From Saprospiraceae bacterium (lineage in GTDB: Bacteria > Bacteroidota > Bacteroidia > Chitinophagales > Saprospiraceae): a stretch of 64,000 bases of DNA. The stretch covers positions 16,993-80,992 of the forward strand of contig JARGNR010000004.1 of NCBI GenBank assembly GCA_029212405.1, read 5' to 3'. The translations under genes were made by a program, and so were the position numbers. The notes under the pieces are model-generated. The model was not told where the DNA came from and did no database searches. It worked only from the letters and a program-made list of their open reading frames with translations. Below, piece by piece: positions 2,299-7,368 of the stretch (position 1 is the stretch's first letter; the number at the start of each line of letters is the position of its first letter).

Positions 2299-3336
2299 TT
2301 ATACTTTTTCATTGTAATCCGTGTTATCTCCATATTTTTTAGCAGCTTCAATCATTCTATATTTCATACGATTCCTCATTCGTTCAGGTTTCAACACTTC
2401 AATTTTTTCACCGAAACCAAGAATTAGTCGTTCAATTTCAAAATTATGATGCACATTTATTTGTATAATAATACTGTTGTCCTCAAATTTTTTGATCAAC
2501 TTTTGAGAGTGGTGAAATGGTTTAGTTAGTACGTATGGAGCATTTGATGGGTCAATCCAAAGGACAATTTCTAGAATTTGTTCGTCATTTAATACGGTTA
2601 CACCAAACGTGTTTTTATAGTAATCATCTGGGTTGAAGTTGTCTTTACTATATTCTTCTGACAAGGAATAGGAAATCTTCTGAATTCGATCTAAAGCAAA
2701 GTTCTGTATATTCTTTCTACCATTTACTTTACCAACAGCAAACCATCTGTTGTTGAATTCTTTCAAGATGTATGGAGTGAAATTGAATTCTGAAGGCCGA
2801 TCGGATTTGAAGGATTGATATTTAATTGAAAGGACTATTTTTTTCAGGATAGCTTGATAAATGACATCCAAATGTTCTAGCCCTTTTAATTCCTTATTGG
2901 TATCTAAATGAATAATTGAATCTTTGGAATTTTTTTCGCTGTAGACCTTATCTTCCAACTTTTGAAGGACTCCATTCAAATCCGAAAATAGGGAGAAATC
3001 TTTGAATTGTTTTAGCATTTCCACAGATTCCATGATGACTCCCATGTCTGTTTCAGTAATGGGAATGTTAGTAATAGAGTAATCTGCATCTTCGTAGGTA
3101 TAGTACTTTTTATCGTAGACTACAATAGGAGCATTATATCCTAGCTTATCGCTTCTCATTAATTGTAAGTCTAATTGGATGGTTCGTTTGCTTACATTTG
3201 TACTTTTACCTTCGTACTCATATAATGCATCGGAACATGCATCGATAAGAGAGTCCAATGTCCATTTTCGTTGACGATTTTGAAGACATTGATCAATTGT
3301 TCGATATCGAATAAGTGCATTTTTGTTGGTTGCCAT
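2299..3336 (-). CDS. WYL-domain helix-turn-helix transcriptional regulator
   Basis: N-terminal wHTH (IRYRTIDQCLQNRQRKWTLDSLIDACSDALYEYEG) and WYL-like core (LSIKYQSFKS...FTPYILKEFNNRWFAVGK); ATG at 3336 preferred over the ORF-track start. Confidence 0.8.
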   Translation of the reverse strand: MATNKNALIRYRTIDQCLQNRQRKWTLDSLIDACSDALYEYEGKSTNVSKRTIQLDLQLMRSDKLGYNAPIVVYDKKYYTYEDADYSITNIPITETDMGVIMESVEMLKQFKDFSLFSDLNGVLQKLEDKVYSEKNSKDSIIHLDTNKELKGLEHLDVIYQAILKKIVLSIKYQSFKSDRPSEFNFTPYILKEFNNRWFAVGKVNGRKNIQNFALDRIQKISYSLSEEYSKDNFNPDDYYKNTFGVTVLNDEQILEIVLWIDPSNAPYVLTKPFHHSQKLIKKFEDNSIIIQINVHHNFEIERLILGFGEKIEVLKPERMRNRMKYRMIEAAKKYGDNTDYNEKV

Positions 3337-3362
3337 AAGTATTTTATTTTGCACTTTAAATG

Positions 3363-4781
<1,419 letters not shown>

Positions 4782-4802
4782 ATTATAACTTTGCGTCAAC
4801 TT

Positions 4803-4910
4803 ATGAAAGTTACCAATATACATATGAGCGAACTGGGATTATTCCCGACGATAGATTTAAATCGAGAATACGATTTGAAAATGGATCGCTTATATCATCC
4901 TGTAGAGTAA
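4803..4910 (+). CDS. short ORF, 35 aa (MKVTNIHMSELGLFPTIDLNREYDLKMDRLYHPVE); candidate leader peptide downstream of rtcB
   Basis: ATG...TAA between rtcB stop and a terminator; 15/35 residues are D/E/H/L/P. Confidence 0.45.
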   Translation: MKVTNIHMSELGLFPTIDLNREYDLKMDRLYHPVE

Positions 4911-4942
4911 TATTTATTTGAAAATATACAATTCGAAAAAAG

Positions 4943-4973
4943 AGCGTCCAGATTAAATTTTGGGCGCTTTTTT
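4943..4973 (+). terminator. Rho-independent terminator after rtcB/short ORF 1
   Basis: AGCGTCCA...TGGGCGCT hairpin followed by TTTTTT. Confidence 0.75.
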
Positions 4974-5175
4974 AGTTTAGAAACAAATATAATTTAAAGA
5001 AAAACACAATTATTTTGAATAATTAGAAAGACATAAATATCGCACTTGAAAAGAATAACAATTGAGAGACAGACTGTTGTGAATTTTGACATATGCTGCT
5101 TAAGAGCGGCCATAAATACCAATGTCAATAAGCTACATAACTAATTGAAAATCAATTAATTAAATTATTTTTTCC

Positions 5176-5205
5176 TTGTGATTTTAAAAAATTTGTTTAC
5201 CTTTG
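5176..5205 (+). promoter_or_regulatory. Bacteroidota-type promoter (TTG 5176-5178, N19, TACCTTTG 5198-5205)
   Basis: Good consensus match upstream of short ORF 2. Confidence 0.65.
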
Positions 5206-5309
5206 CATTGTCAATTAATAAAAACAGAGAAAGACATATTAGTAAATAAAACCTGTTGCTTATTTAATTCACAATGAAAATCAATTAAAAAATATAAATA
5301 CCAGTTGTA

Positions 5310-5432
5310 ATGACATATTCAATTTCACATATCGAACTTTTATTAGACATCGAACCCCGTTTACCCGAACTGGATTGTGATCTGGAACATTTGGATGAGT
5401 ATTCATTACAAGAGATAGTAGATTGTATGTAA
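5310..5432 (+). CDS. short ORF, 40 aa (MTYSISHIELLLDIEPRLPELDCDLEHLDEYSLQEIVDCM); candidate leader peptide of a tRNA-array attenuator
   Basis: Promoter upstream, terminator downstream; 23/40 residues are Leu, Glu, Asp, Pro or His; no Lys/Asn/Gly/Ala/Phe. Confidence 0.6.
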   Translation: MTYSISHIELLLDIEPRLPELDCDLEHLDEYSLQEIVDCM

Positions 5433-5457
5433 ATATAAAAGTCATACGATAGATCTA

Positions 5458-5493
5458 AAAGCATCTCTTGATTCCAAAGAGGTGCTTTTTTTT
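5458..5493 (+). terminator. Terminator/attenuator between short ORF 2 and the tRNA array
   Basis: GCATCTCTT/AAGAGGTGC stem followed by TTTTTTTT; 5' arm complementary to CAAGAGAT at 5409-5416 inside short ORF 2. Confidence 0.8.
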
Positions 5494-5558
5494 GCTTTCA
5501 TTTTAAACATTCATTTAAAAGGATCATAATCCAAGGAGTATCAAATTGCTCCACATCC

Positions 5559-5631
5559 AGTATTGTAACTCAATGGCTAGAGTGCCCGACTGTCTCTCGG
5601 GGAGTTGCGGGTTCGAATCCCGTCAATACTG
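5559..5631 (+). tRNA. tRNA-Asp(GTC)-like, non-canonical (T37)
   Basis: Acceptor AGTATTG/CAATACT, D-arm ACTC/GAGT, anticodon arm CCCGA-CTGTCTC-TCGGG, T-arm with TTCGAAT; discriminator G. Confidence 0.75.
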
Positions 5632-5635
5632 CAAA

Positions 5636-5681
5636 GATTGAGAAAAATGCCTTGTTTTTTGCCAGCATTACTTTTTCAATC
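5636..5681 (+). other. Stem-loop in the spacer between tRNA-Asp and tRNA-Glu
   Basis: GATTGA..AAAAATGC pairs with GCATTac..TTTTTCAATC. Confidence 0.5.
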
Positions 5682-5685
5682 CTAC

Positions 5686-5757
5686 GCTCCGTTCGTATAA
5701 TGGTTAGTACACTTGGCTTTCTACCGAGTAATAAGGGTTCGATTCCCTTACGGAGTA
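5686..5757 (+). tRNA. tRNA-Glu(TTC)-like copy 1, T37
   Basis: Acceptor GCTCCGT/ACGGAGT, anticodon arm CTTGG-CTTTCTA-CCGAG, T-arm AAGGG-TTCGATT-CCCTT. Confidence 0.8.
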
Positions 5758-5770
5758 CAAAAATTTAAAT

Positions 5771-5842
5771 CTGAGAAGATAACGGTGGTTGTTTACTCGC
5801 TTTGGAAGCGAGAGGTCATAGGTTCAAATCCTATTTCTCAGA
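5771..5842 (+). tRNA. tRNA-Pro(TGG)-like, no T8/A14
   Basis: Acceptor CTGAGAA/TTCTCAG with C1-G72 and A73, anticodon arm CTCGC-TTTGGAA-GCGAG, T-arm ATAGG-TTCAAAT-CCTAT. Confidence 0.75.
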
Positions 5843-5847
5843 CTATT

Positions 5848-5919
5848 GCTCCGTTCGTATAATGGTTAGTATACTCGGCTTTCTACCGAGGGATGAGGGT
5901 TCGATTCCCTTACGGAGTA
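5848..5919 (+). tRNA. tRNA-Glu(TTC)-like copy 2, T37
   Basis: Near-identical to copy 1; anticodon arm CTCGG-CTTTCTA-CCGAG. Confidence 0.8.
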
Positions 5920-5925
5920 CAAAAT

Positions 5926-5999
5926 GCGGGGATGGCGGAAATGGCATACGCGTCCGATTTAGAATCGGGAATTTGAGGGTTCGACTCCCTCTCTCTGCA
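5926..5999 (+). tRNA. tRNA-Leu(TAG)-like with short (class I) variable loop
   Basis: Acceptor GCGGGGA/TCTCTGC, anticodon arm TCCGA-TTTAGAA-TCGGG, 5-nt variable region AATTT, T-arm GAGGG-TTCGACT-CCCTC. Confidence 0.75.
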
Positions 6000-6018
6000 C
6001 CTATCACGATAGATCTAG

Positions 6019-6092
6019 ATCCCACTAGCCCAATTGGCAGAGGCAAAGGATTTAAGCTCCTTACAGTCTGGGTTCGACTCCCAGGTGGGATA
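6019..6092 (+). tRNA. tRNA-Leu(TAA)-like with short (class I) variable loop
   Basis: Acceptor ATCCCAC/GTGGGAT, anticodon arm AAGGA-TTTAAGC-TCCTT, 5-nt variable region ACAGT, T-arm CTGGG-TTCGACT-CCCAG. Confidence 0.8.
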
Positions 6093-6108
6093 CAAGATTG
6101 TATCATAT

Positions 6109-6180
6109 GGTGTCTCTAGTTTAACTGGTAAAATACCTCAATGTGGATGAGGAGAACAGAGTTCGAGTCTCGGTGACACC
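6109..6180 (+). tRNA. tRNA-His(GTG)-like with defective T stem/acceptor mismatch
   Basis: GGTGTC/GACACC acceptor (including G-1), anticodon arm CCTCA-ATGTGGA-TGAGG, TTCGAGT loop; T-T mismatch and bulge in T stem. Confidence 0.7.
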
Positions 6181-6280
6181 CAAAATATTTGTAAAATAAC
6201 TCTGAGGATTTTCAGAGGTAGGTGAGAACGAGCAATTACTCACTGCCAATAAAGTGCGGAGATTTTCGTTATTAACTCGC

Positions 6281-6841
6281 TCAGTTTAATGTGTCGATGT
6301 AATCTACGATTTCCTCCGAAACTTGAATCACTTTGGCTTCAATTTGTTCTGCTAAAACGTTTAGATTATCAAAATCTGGATTTTCGATTATCGTGGTTTC
6401 AAAAATTGAATATTTAGGCATTTCAGTTTTGTCCTTATTCCACTTTGTGGTTTTCAACAAATTCCAATATTTTTTTTGAATAGGTATAGTAGTTCCAAGT
6501 AACCAAATTTCAAATCTCATTTCTATGTGATTTAATACAAATCCGAGTTTTAGTTTTTTGCTCTTTAAAATATCATTTGAATAGTAGAAATACGTATAGT
6601 CCATATATCCATGAAGAATTCCAGCAAATGAAAAATGACCAGAACAGCTCTTGATAAAATTCGTTCTTAACTTCATAACAAATTTCACTAATTCGTTGTA
6701 GGCTATTACTATGTCTCCTTTTCTAAGTTGTTCTTTATAAATCGAAACATATTTATTCAAATTTTCCATATCTGTTTTTATTAGATTTTTCAATTCAGGG
6801 TATAGCTCTCCTACTCTTATCATTTGGTTAAACGTATTCAC
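6281..6841 (-). CDS. hypothetical protein (186 aa)
   Basis: Long ORF without a recognised motif. Confidence 0.5.
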   Translation of the reverse strand: MNTFNQMIRVGELYPELKNLIKTDMENLNKYVSIYKEQLRKGDIVIAYNELVKFVMKLRTNFIKSCSGHFSFAGILHGYMDYTYFYYSNDILKSKKLKLGFVLNHIEMRFEIWLLGTTIPIQKKYWNLLKTTKWNKDKTEMPKYSIFETTIIENPDFDNLNVLAEQIEAKVIQVSEEIVDYIDTLN

Positions 6842-6855
6842 GAAGTTCTATTGGT

Positions 6856-7368
6856 TTATTCTTTCGAAGGTATCATATTAGAAGTGTCTACTGGAAAACT
6901 GTCGTATTTGTTATACAGCTTTAAAAATTTTTTAGGATTTATAGGATCTTCACTTATTGTTTCTAGCAACCCTTTAAAAAAACCTTCACGTTTTTCAGAA
7001 GGATTAAATATGAGTAAGAGTTGAACAGTTTGGTCAGTATTATTTCTGAAACCATGTGGAGTAAACCTGGGAACATAAGCAATTGTGCCGGGTTTAGCTT
7101 CTTGTATTTTGTCTCCAACTTCAATTGTAAGTGTACCCTTGATAACGATAAATGTTTCATCCATAAAACGATGATAATGTAATTTGGCCCCTATTGTTTT
7201 TGGGGGAAGTGTTATTTCATATATACCCATTTTATTATTGGATAATTCACTTGTCACCTTAAAGGTTACTAAGATACCATTTAATTGTAGGTGTTCACCT
7301 TCTTCGGGACCAATAATGGATGAATTGTCAACGAGTTCATCTTCAAAATAATTTGGTTCTTTTTTCAT
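6856..7368 (-). CDS. cupin-domain protein
   Basis: LPPKTIGAKLHYHRFMDETFIVIKGTLTIEVGDKIQEAKPGTIAYVPRFTPHGFRN cupin motifs. Confidence 0.8.
   Translation of the reverse strand: MKKEPNYFEDELVDNSSIIGPEEGEHLQLNGILVTFKVTSELSNNKMGIYEITLPPKTIGAKLHYHRFMDETFIVIKGTLTIEVGDKIQEAKPGTIAYVPRFTPHGFRNNTDQTVQLLLIFNPSEKREGFFKGLLETISEDPINPKKFLKLYNKYDSFPVDTSNMIPSKE

Follow-up and report, generated by a model that had tools for sequence, protein, structure and literature searches.

Short leucine tRNAs in a tRNA array with a putative leader-peptide attenuator in a Saprospiraceae bacterium

Two neighbouring tRNA genes with leucine anticodons on class I bodies lie in a 64,000-nucleotide stretch of the draft genome of a Saprospiraceae bacterium (the whole stretch analysed is called the window below). 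They raise the questions of whether such tRNAs can be charged with leucine and what they are for, and they touch on a puzzle, namely what silences large extra tRNA arrays and what calls them up. Judging from sequence, the two genes quite probably belong to a reserve tRNA array that is silenced by a leader-peptide attenuator.

Short leucine tRNAs in the array and beyond

Seven tRNA genes (Asp, Glu, Pro, Glu, Leu-TAG, Leu-TAA and His) were found in the window at 5559-6181 by ARAGORN, all on the + strand and all matched by Rfam RF00005:

5559..5632, + strand: tRNA-Asp (gtc)
5686..5758, + strand: tRNA-Glu (ttc)
5771..5843, + strand: tRNA-Pro (tgg), with an unusual D arm and G at position 8
5848..5920, + strand: tRNA-Glu (ttc), second copy
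5926..5999 (5926-6001 in ARAGORN), + strand: tRNA-Leu (tag), class I body, variable loop AATTT
6019..6092 (6019-6093 in ARAGORN), + strand: tRNA-Leu (taa), class I body, variable loop ACAGT
6109..6181, + strand: tRNA-His (gtg), T stem one pair short in the Rfam alignment

The array is adjoined on its 3' side by a gene for a DUF7000 protein (6281-6841, opposite strand, Pfam). A large polysaccharide synthesis and export cluster occupies 16058-63203; nine of its ORFs were scanned with Pfam, and they include Poly_export, flippase, glycosyltransferase and UDP-sugar dehydrogenase genes.

The first-pass annotation had described two leucine-anticodon tRNAs of class I with 5-nt variable loops, and this was confirmed by ARAGORN, by RF00005 and by readout of the variable regions, which are 5 nt long in both genes. 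The covariance-model scoring that it proposed as a check gave full-length matches of 57.0 bits for Leu-TAG and 52.5 bits for Leu-TAA (RF00005, cut-off 29). The long variable arm (>10 nt) of bacterial class II tRNA-Leu is absent in both, and the view that this shape is unusual in bacteria is shared here: the core Leu genes of the same genome (taa, caa, tag) are class II, with variable regions of 13-15 nt. Both short tRNAs carry U8, A14, A15-U48, G18, G19 and A73, and their anticodon loops are intact.

The source genome is a 6.8-Mb draft in 222 contigs, and genes for tRNA-Asp, -Pro, -His and -Leu occur in it outside the array as well. No tRNA-Glu gene was found outside the array by a tRNA scan and a sequence pattern search of the draft; the Glu pattern gave three matches there, none of them a tRNA by ARAGORN. 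Because tRNA-Ile is likewise missing from the draft, gaps in the assembly or in the gene list are the likely cause; for Glu the array may serve as more than a backup, unless the core copy lies in an assembly gap. Elsewhere in the genome (C108:41051-41422, - strand), three tRNA-like genes with near-identical bodies and differing anticodon loops lie directly behind a dehydrogenase-like gene; their tRNA scores are low (40-52 bits), and one has no normal anticodon by ARAGORN.

Comparison with homologous arrays, another proposed check, showed that short Leu tRNAs recur. In arrays ascertained through RtcB, that is without selection for the type of Leu tRNA, 13 of 15 Leu tRNAs are short: both in the window, L135, L138 and L150, one of two in L083, the only one in each of L141, L147, L235 and L239, and none of one in L094. 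Not included are single Leu genes that precede RtcB in L138, L141 and L147, and one further short Leu of L147 that was detected by covariance model only. The two long exceptions (L083, L094) have a variable region of 13 nt, the same as the shortest core Leu. The short Leu tRNAs are thus not peculiar to the window. Over 40 arrays the proportion is 41 of 44, a figure biased because the L285-L296 and L315-L323 arrays were found with a class I Leu model.

That model was built from 15 aligned class I Leu tRNAs of arrays and viral sequences. It gives at least 69.6 bits to class I Leu, at most 69.5 bits to class II Leu, and about 60 bits or less to other isotypes, apart from one 64-bit, 96-nt match in L238. 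With it, Leu tRNAs of 73-74 nt were found in at least 13 of 395 Bacteroidota genomes, the source genome included, a lower bound with 12 candidates scored per genome. In the other 12 genomes, all class I Leu have 5-nt loops, U8, A14, A15-U48 and A73. Nine more genomes with class I Leu, all in arrays, came from another 395 genomes sampled from the class. Among the 40 arrays, tRNAs for Ala (4), Thr (6), Val (6) and Gly (8) are rare, and those for Arg, Pro, Gln, Asp, His and Glu are present in 21-26; this isotype bias may mirror which tRNAs are attacked.

Similar tRNAs are carried by phages. Leu-TAG matches Vibrio phage VspSw_1 (78.9% over all 76 nt, blastn) and Leu-TAA matches Pseudomonas phage 16Q (80.0% over 99% of the query), and each of the five phage records examined holds at least one Leu tRNA with a loop of 5-6 nt. 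Phages of Vibrio, Pseudomonas, Cellulophaga and Mycobacterium encode a tRNA-Leu about 75 nt long, which has a class I body with the same determinants as in the window and an identical or near-identical D arm, that of the window Leu-TAA being identical letter for letter in Pseudomonas phage 16Q and mycobacteriophage Faith1. The class I Leu type is therefore common to phages and bacteria. Viral loci with RtcB relatives include a tRNA in 19 of 80 cases and three or more in 4 of 80; the only one used further, L169 (viral contig IMGVR_UViG_3300044613_001473), encodes, among other tRNAs, class I Leu-taa and Leu-caa. A search of plasmid sequences returned no match to the TAG type and four to the TAA type, one adjoining a phage-like integrase and two on unannotated stretches; plasmid RtcB homologues are less than 60% identical in 129 of 130 records.

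It is very unlikely that the array genes are drifting, functionless remnants of phage tRNA clusters. The shared D arm of the Pseudomonas and Mycobacterium phages, the occurrence of class I tRNA-Leu in phages at all and the deviant Pro and His genes of the window would suit such an origin, but the cloverleaf is paired in 98.7% of cells of the 15-tRNA alignment, and two-sided changes occur at 17 of 20 pairs (shuffles: mean 12.6, none of 500 as high), so that the class I Leu tRNAs are not chance products. Moreover, class I Leu always lies inside a run of at least three tRNAs in the 12 other genomes, and the leaders described below recur with a fixed layout.

Charging of the short leucine tRNAs

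The loss of the arm had been taken to make charging uncertain, with mischarging, a tolerant synthetase or a decoy role as the options. The premise is weak. LeuRS of Escherichia coli requires A73, A15-U48, G18G19 and A20a, is independent of the anticodon and of the long arm, and still charges armless variants, according to the available text of a review (PMC9976931), which gives the identity of human mt-tRNA-Leu(UUR) as A73 plus A14. The window tRNAs fit this account in carrying A73, A15-U48 and G18G19. A single LeuRS above the family cut-off is encoded in the source genome. Because bacterial LeuRS is reported to be arm-independent, both short tRNAs are probably leucylated by this one enzyme, the route being A73, A15-U48, U8-A14 and G18G19, and together they would decode CUN and UUR. 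The tolerant synthetase is thus the favoured option, and mischarging or a decoy role is less likely and superfluous as an explanation.

Long arms are retained by all 22 Ser and all 18 Tyr tRNAs of the 40 arrays. Arms held in Ser and Tyr and lost in Leu are expected if each gene is constrained by the needs of its synthetase; since LeuRS can do without the long arm, Leu tRNAs would be free to lose it. Candidate causes of the loss are descent from phages, evasion of a nuclease or modification enzyme, and compactness. The array tRNA-Ser of six loci (L135, L138, L141, L147, L150 and L239) deviate in their D arms and at position 8, which is A or C, with long variable arms and G73 kept.

Leucine anticodons together with A73 are unfit for the known determinants of most other synthetases. 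Charging of Leu-TAG and Leu-TAA with another amino acid, by which Leu codons would be recoded, is accordingly regarded as extremely improbable: the class I bodies do differ from the class II Leu tRNAs of the host, but the LeuRS determinants are kept.

Alternatively, the class I Leu tRNAs might be uncharged decoys or sponges for anticodon nucleases, mended by RtcB. Intact anticodon loops, the adjoining rtcB gene and other RNA-repair genes in related loci fit this idea. A decoy would have no need of synthetase determinants, yet U8, A14, A15-U48 and A73 are retained by 40 of the 41 short array Leu tRNAs; Ser and Tyr array tRNAs keep their arms, and leader codons that are read by the array suit tRNAs at work in translation. 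We consider a decoy role improbable and favour charged, working tRNAs.

Leader, terminator and antiterminator

Two units, each of a small ORF and an intrinsic terminator, lie between rtcB and the array:

4803..4910, + strand: first leader ORF, 35 codons; a count by eye gives 15 residues D, E, H, L or P among the 34 that follow Met
4941..4978, + strand: first intrinsic terminator, 3' of rtcB and the first leader
5176..5206, + strand: candidate Bacteroidota-type promoter (sequence pattern), TTG ... TACCTTTG, 5' of the second leader
5310..5432, + strand: second leader ORF, 40 codons, encoding MTYSISHIELLLDIEPRLPELDCDLEHLDEYSLQEIVDCM
5409..5416, + strand: putative antiterminator segment CAAGAGAT within the second leader, pairing with 5463-5470
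5457..5497, + strand: second intrinsic terminator, 61 nt 5' of the first tRNA, its 5' arm including 5463-5470

The pattern at 5176..5206 resembles the Bacteroidota promoter consensus.

The second leader is rich in codons for Asp, Glu, Pro, Leu and His, the isotypes of the array, and array tRNAs read 23 of the 39 codons that follow its start, against 11.5 expected from pooled leaders. Its stop codon is followed after 25 nt by the second terminator, and CAAGAGAT (5409-5416) is complementary to ATCTCTTG (5463-5470) in the terminator 5' arm. In structure predictions, the helix between leader and arm is part of the minimum-energy fold when the 3' arm is left out, and is replaced by a 13-pair terminator when the 3' arm is included. 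For the first unit (4803-4978) the alternative fold is weak (z -1.2), a point against the attenuator reading. Many loci have a comparable first unit ahead of the second; with two units in series, read-through into the array may require two antitermination events. A short stretch, a frame of which reads MRDSHL..., recurs upstream of the second leader in L285, L290, L291 and L296 and is perhaps a promoter or operator. No Rfam attenuator family scored above its cut-off in 4700-7000.

The layout recurs in other arrays. In 27 of 28 array loci, a rule-based finder placed the hairpin 22-31 nt after the leader stop, whereas a small ORF ends 20-32 nt upstream of only 17 of 148 other hairpin-T elements of the same loci (Fisher 3.6e-19). 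Some choices were made by hand, in L288 and L291 (where the rule took the first unit) and in L235a, and a downstream start was used in L286 and L287. L078, L115 and L294, with 1, 2 and 3 tRNAs (contig ends or missed genes), were left out of the composition tests, and L115 also out of the duplex and fold tests.

Leaders match their own arrays. For 19 non-redundant leaders the match was 64.3 at the amino-acid level, against 0.9 (sd 11.1) for permuted arrays, and the codon-level excess was 68.9 against 0.3 (sd 11.0), neither value being reached in 20,000 permutations; the codon excess was 57.4 without the window and 56.7 without the window and the hand-picked L235a, again with 0 of 20,000. The genome of L235 has two arrays with two differing leaders: that of L235b is rich in R, K, V, N, M and F before an array of Phe-Lys-Asn-Gly-Arg-Met-Arg-Val (14 of 21 codons, 6.7 expected), and that of L235a is not enriched (14 of 50, 13.4 expected). 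Little or no codon excess was found in L135 (32 of 40, 32.1 expected), L289 (25 of 40, 26.5) and L292 (6 of 30, 5.5), large arrays being uninformative in this test. Synonymous change prevails (pS > pN) in six of seven leader pairs, but L292/L296 shows the opposite (pN > pS). A pattern of leader codons selecting the correct Leu box was sought and rejected, and Ser boxes were too few. For Arg boxes such a pattern is present (11:2 against 3:16, Fisher 1.9e-4) in a post hoc comparison that set aside five arrays holding both boxes.

The pairing of the leader end with its own terminator arm sums to -250.7 kcal/mol over 20 loci, against -153.5 (sd 10.7) when permuted (0 of 20,000), and the antiterminator segment varies in step with the terminator arm across loci. 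A leader-arm helix of at least five pairs is present in 33 of 34 minimum-energy folds without the 3' arm. The antiterminator finds no support in L238, where 218 of 500 shuffles were as good in the duplex test, or in L320, which has no leader-arm helix.

An out-of-sample set, searched with the finder rule unchanged, consisted of the nine new genomes and a second array of the source genome (L040, C73:13567-14200), Phe-Cys-Ser-Phe-Cys with a 400-nt repeat. The unit was found in 6 of 12 new arrays (at least three tRNAs each) and in C73, whose array has its own terminator and a leader rich in F and S; gaps were 22-29 nt. For the seven leaders, 14 of 5040 permutations were as good in codon match and 2 of 5040 in leader-terminator complementarity. 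Examples are L323, in which Leu-Leu-Ser-Cys-Tyr-Ser follows the leader MIIKNNILSLCLSSYSIGILRGSLYDDLR, and L318, in which Pro-Gln-His-Leu-Arg-Phe follows MILHFIQPQQLRPQSEEGDNYA. By the same rule the unit is absent in the other six new arrays (L316, two in L317, the first in L320 and two in L321), which limits the claim of generality.

These six arrays suit a plain reserve array without attenuation, in which the ORFs would be small proteins or noise, the terminators would end upstream transcripts, and a WYL regulator or promoter would be the only control. A WYL gene and the candidate promoter 5' of the second leader are indeed present, and the Anabaena trn operon is under repressor control, as stated in the available text (PMC10272220). 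We give this reading little credence: the fixed gap, the match of codons to array, and a leader-terminator complementarity that co-varies between loci are features it would not call for.

For the attenuator reading, the elements found are a leader ORF of regulatory codons (permutation tests), an intrinsic terminator before the first gene and, by structure prediction, an antiterminator that excludes the terminator; by analogy, the window unit would work like a trp or his attenuator. When tRNAs of the array isotypes are plentiful, the ribosome would reach the leader stop and cover or melt the antiterminator, letting the terminator fold and leaving the array silent. If cleavage, lack of charging or another cause makes these tRNAs scarce, the ribosome would stall earlier in the leader, the antiterminator would form and RNA polymerase would continue into the array. 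Read-through would thus replace exactly the tRNAs that are missing.

RNA-repair neighbourhood and known systems

Two divergent genes precede the leaders:

2299..3438, - strand: WYL/WCX-domain transcription regulator (Pfam PF13280, PF25583), divergent from rtcB
3417..4781, + strand: RtcB-family RNA ligase (PF01139, 125.9 bits), probable start codon ATG 3417, with the listed ORF beginning farther upstream at TTG 3375

RtcB orthologues that are 62-77% identical occur across Bacteroidota. Named RtcB loci include a tRNA in 17 of 80 cases and three or more in 10 of 80, within the DNA retrieved per locus. RtcB as a constant partner of class I Leu was rejected, since the linkage is real in this subset with three or more tRNAs but missing in most genomes found with the class I Leu model; six of the 13 genomes with class I Leu have an RtcB orthologue, adjacent only in the source genome. 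By ORF clustering, a WYL homologue is present in 14 of 16 RtcB-ascertained loci against 0 of 12 others, and a Band_7/SPFH gene in 8 of 16 and 6 of 12. Band_7 modules were reportedly tied to tRNA-like RNA in an RNA-repair survey of 2016. Other recurring neighbours by Pfam are RlaP, RLIG1, RNase_T, RNaseH_like and a metallophosphatase; array surroundings are therefore seen as RNA-repair neighbourhoods. Several flavobacteria have a class II tRNA-Leu 5' of the RtcB cassette (L138:6487, L146:6488, L147:2957, L141:6148), perhaps as an insertion site.

The adjoining RtcB ligase suggests that the natural trigger would be tRNA damage, for example by anticodon nucleases. A wider and more tentative proposal, which we hold possible but rather doubtful, is a self-sensing tRNA replacement circuit across Bacteroidota: the leader would report on the array's own isoacceptors, and their destruction (e.g., by anticodon nucleases of phage defence or by toxins of rivals) would induce replacements whose bodies differ (armless tRNA-Leu, for one) and that are still charged but poorly seen by the attacker, the rest being repaired by the linked RtcB and other enzymes.

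A leader that mirrors the codons of its array offers a concrete, testable answer to what silences and calls up extra arrays, and would make tRNA genes, besides amino-acid operons, a target of attenuation. Armless Leu tRNAs on a bacterial chromosome contradict the reviewed rule, as worded in the text available, that the arm is dropped only in animal mitochondria, and they are natural substrates for studies of LeuRS recognition. Among the titles and abstract openings listed from the open-licence literature, which are weak evidence, none brought together tRNA arrays and leader-peptide attenuation, and none announced a bacterial or phage class I tRNA-Leu. The ingredients are each known, and their combination looks new.

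Animal mitochondrial tRNA-Leu also has a short variable loop; the present case concerns a bacterial chromosome, and phages too. Rtc operons share RtcB and, as a likely theme, tRNA damage, the Rtc RNA-repair operon of Salmonella being regulated by damaged tRNAs (PMC7790460, available text). The window likewise has the RtcB ligase (Pfam), with neither an RtcR activator nor an RtcA cyclase among the window ORFs scanned with Pfam, and differs from the Rtc operons, as far as that text describes them, in that tRNA genes adjoin the ligase gene.

The nearest known array is the trn operon of Anabaena PCC 7120, a long tRNA array under the repressor TrcR (RHH family). It resembles what is proposed for the window in being an extra array, silent by default and induced on impaired translation, with rtcB co-controlled; its available description (PMC10272220) gives repression by TrcR and mentions no leader peptide, whereas the window has a WYL gene, an adjacent RtcB and a putative attenuator matched to the array. 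The trp, his and ilv attenuators resemble the predicted unit in having a leader ORF of regulatory codons, an intrinsic terminator and a mutually exclusive antiterminator. They control amino-acid operons, whereas the attenuator predicted here precedes tRNA genes, and unlike theirs its regulatory codons are a mixture that mirrors the isoacceptors of the array.
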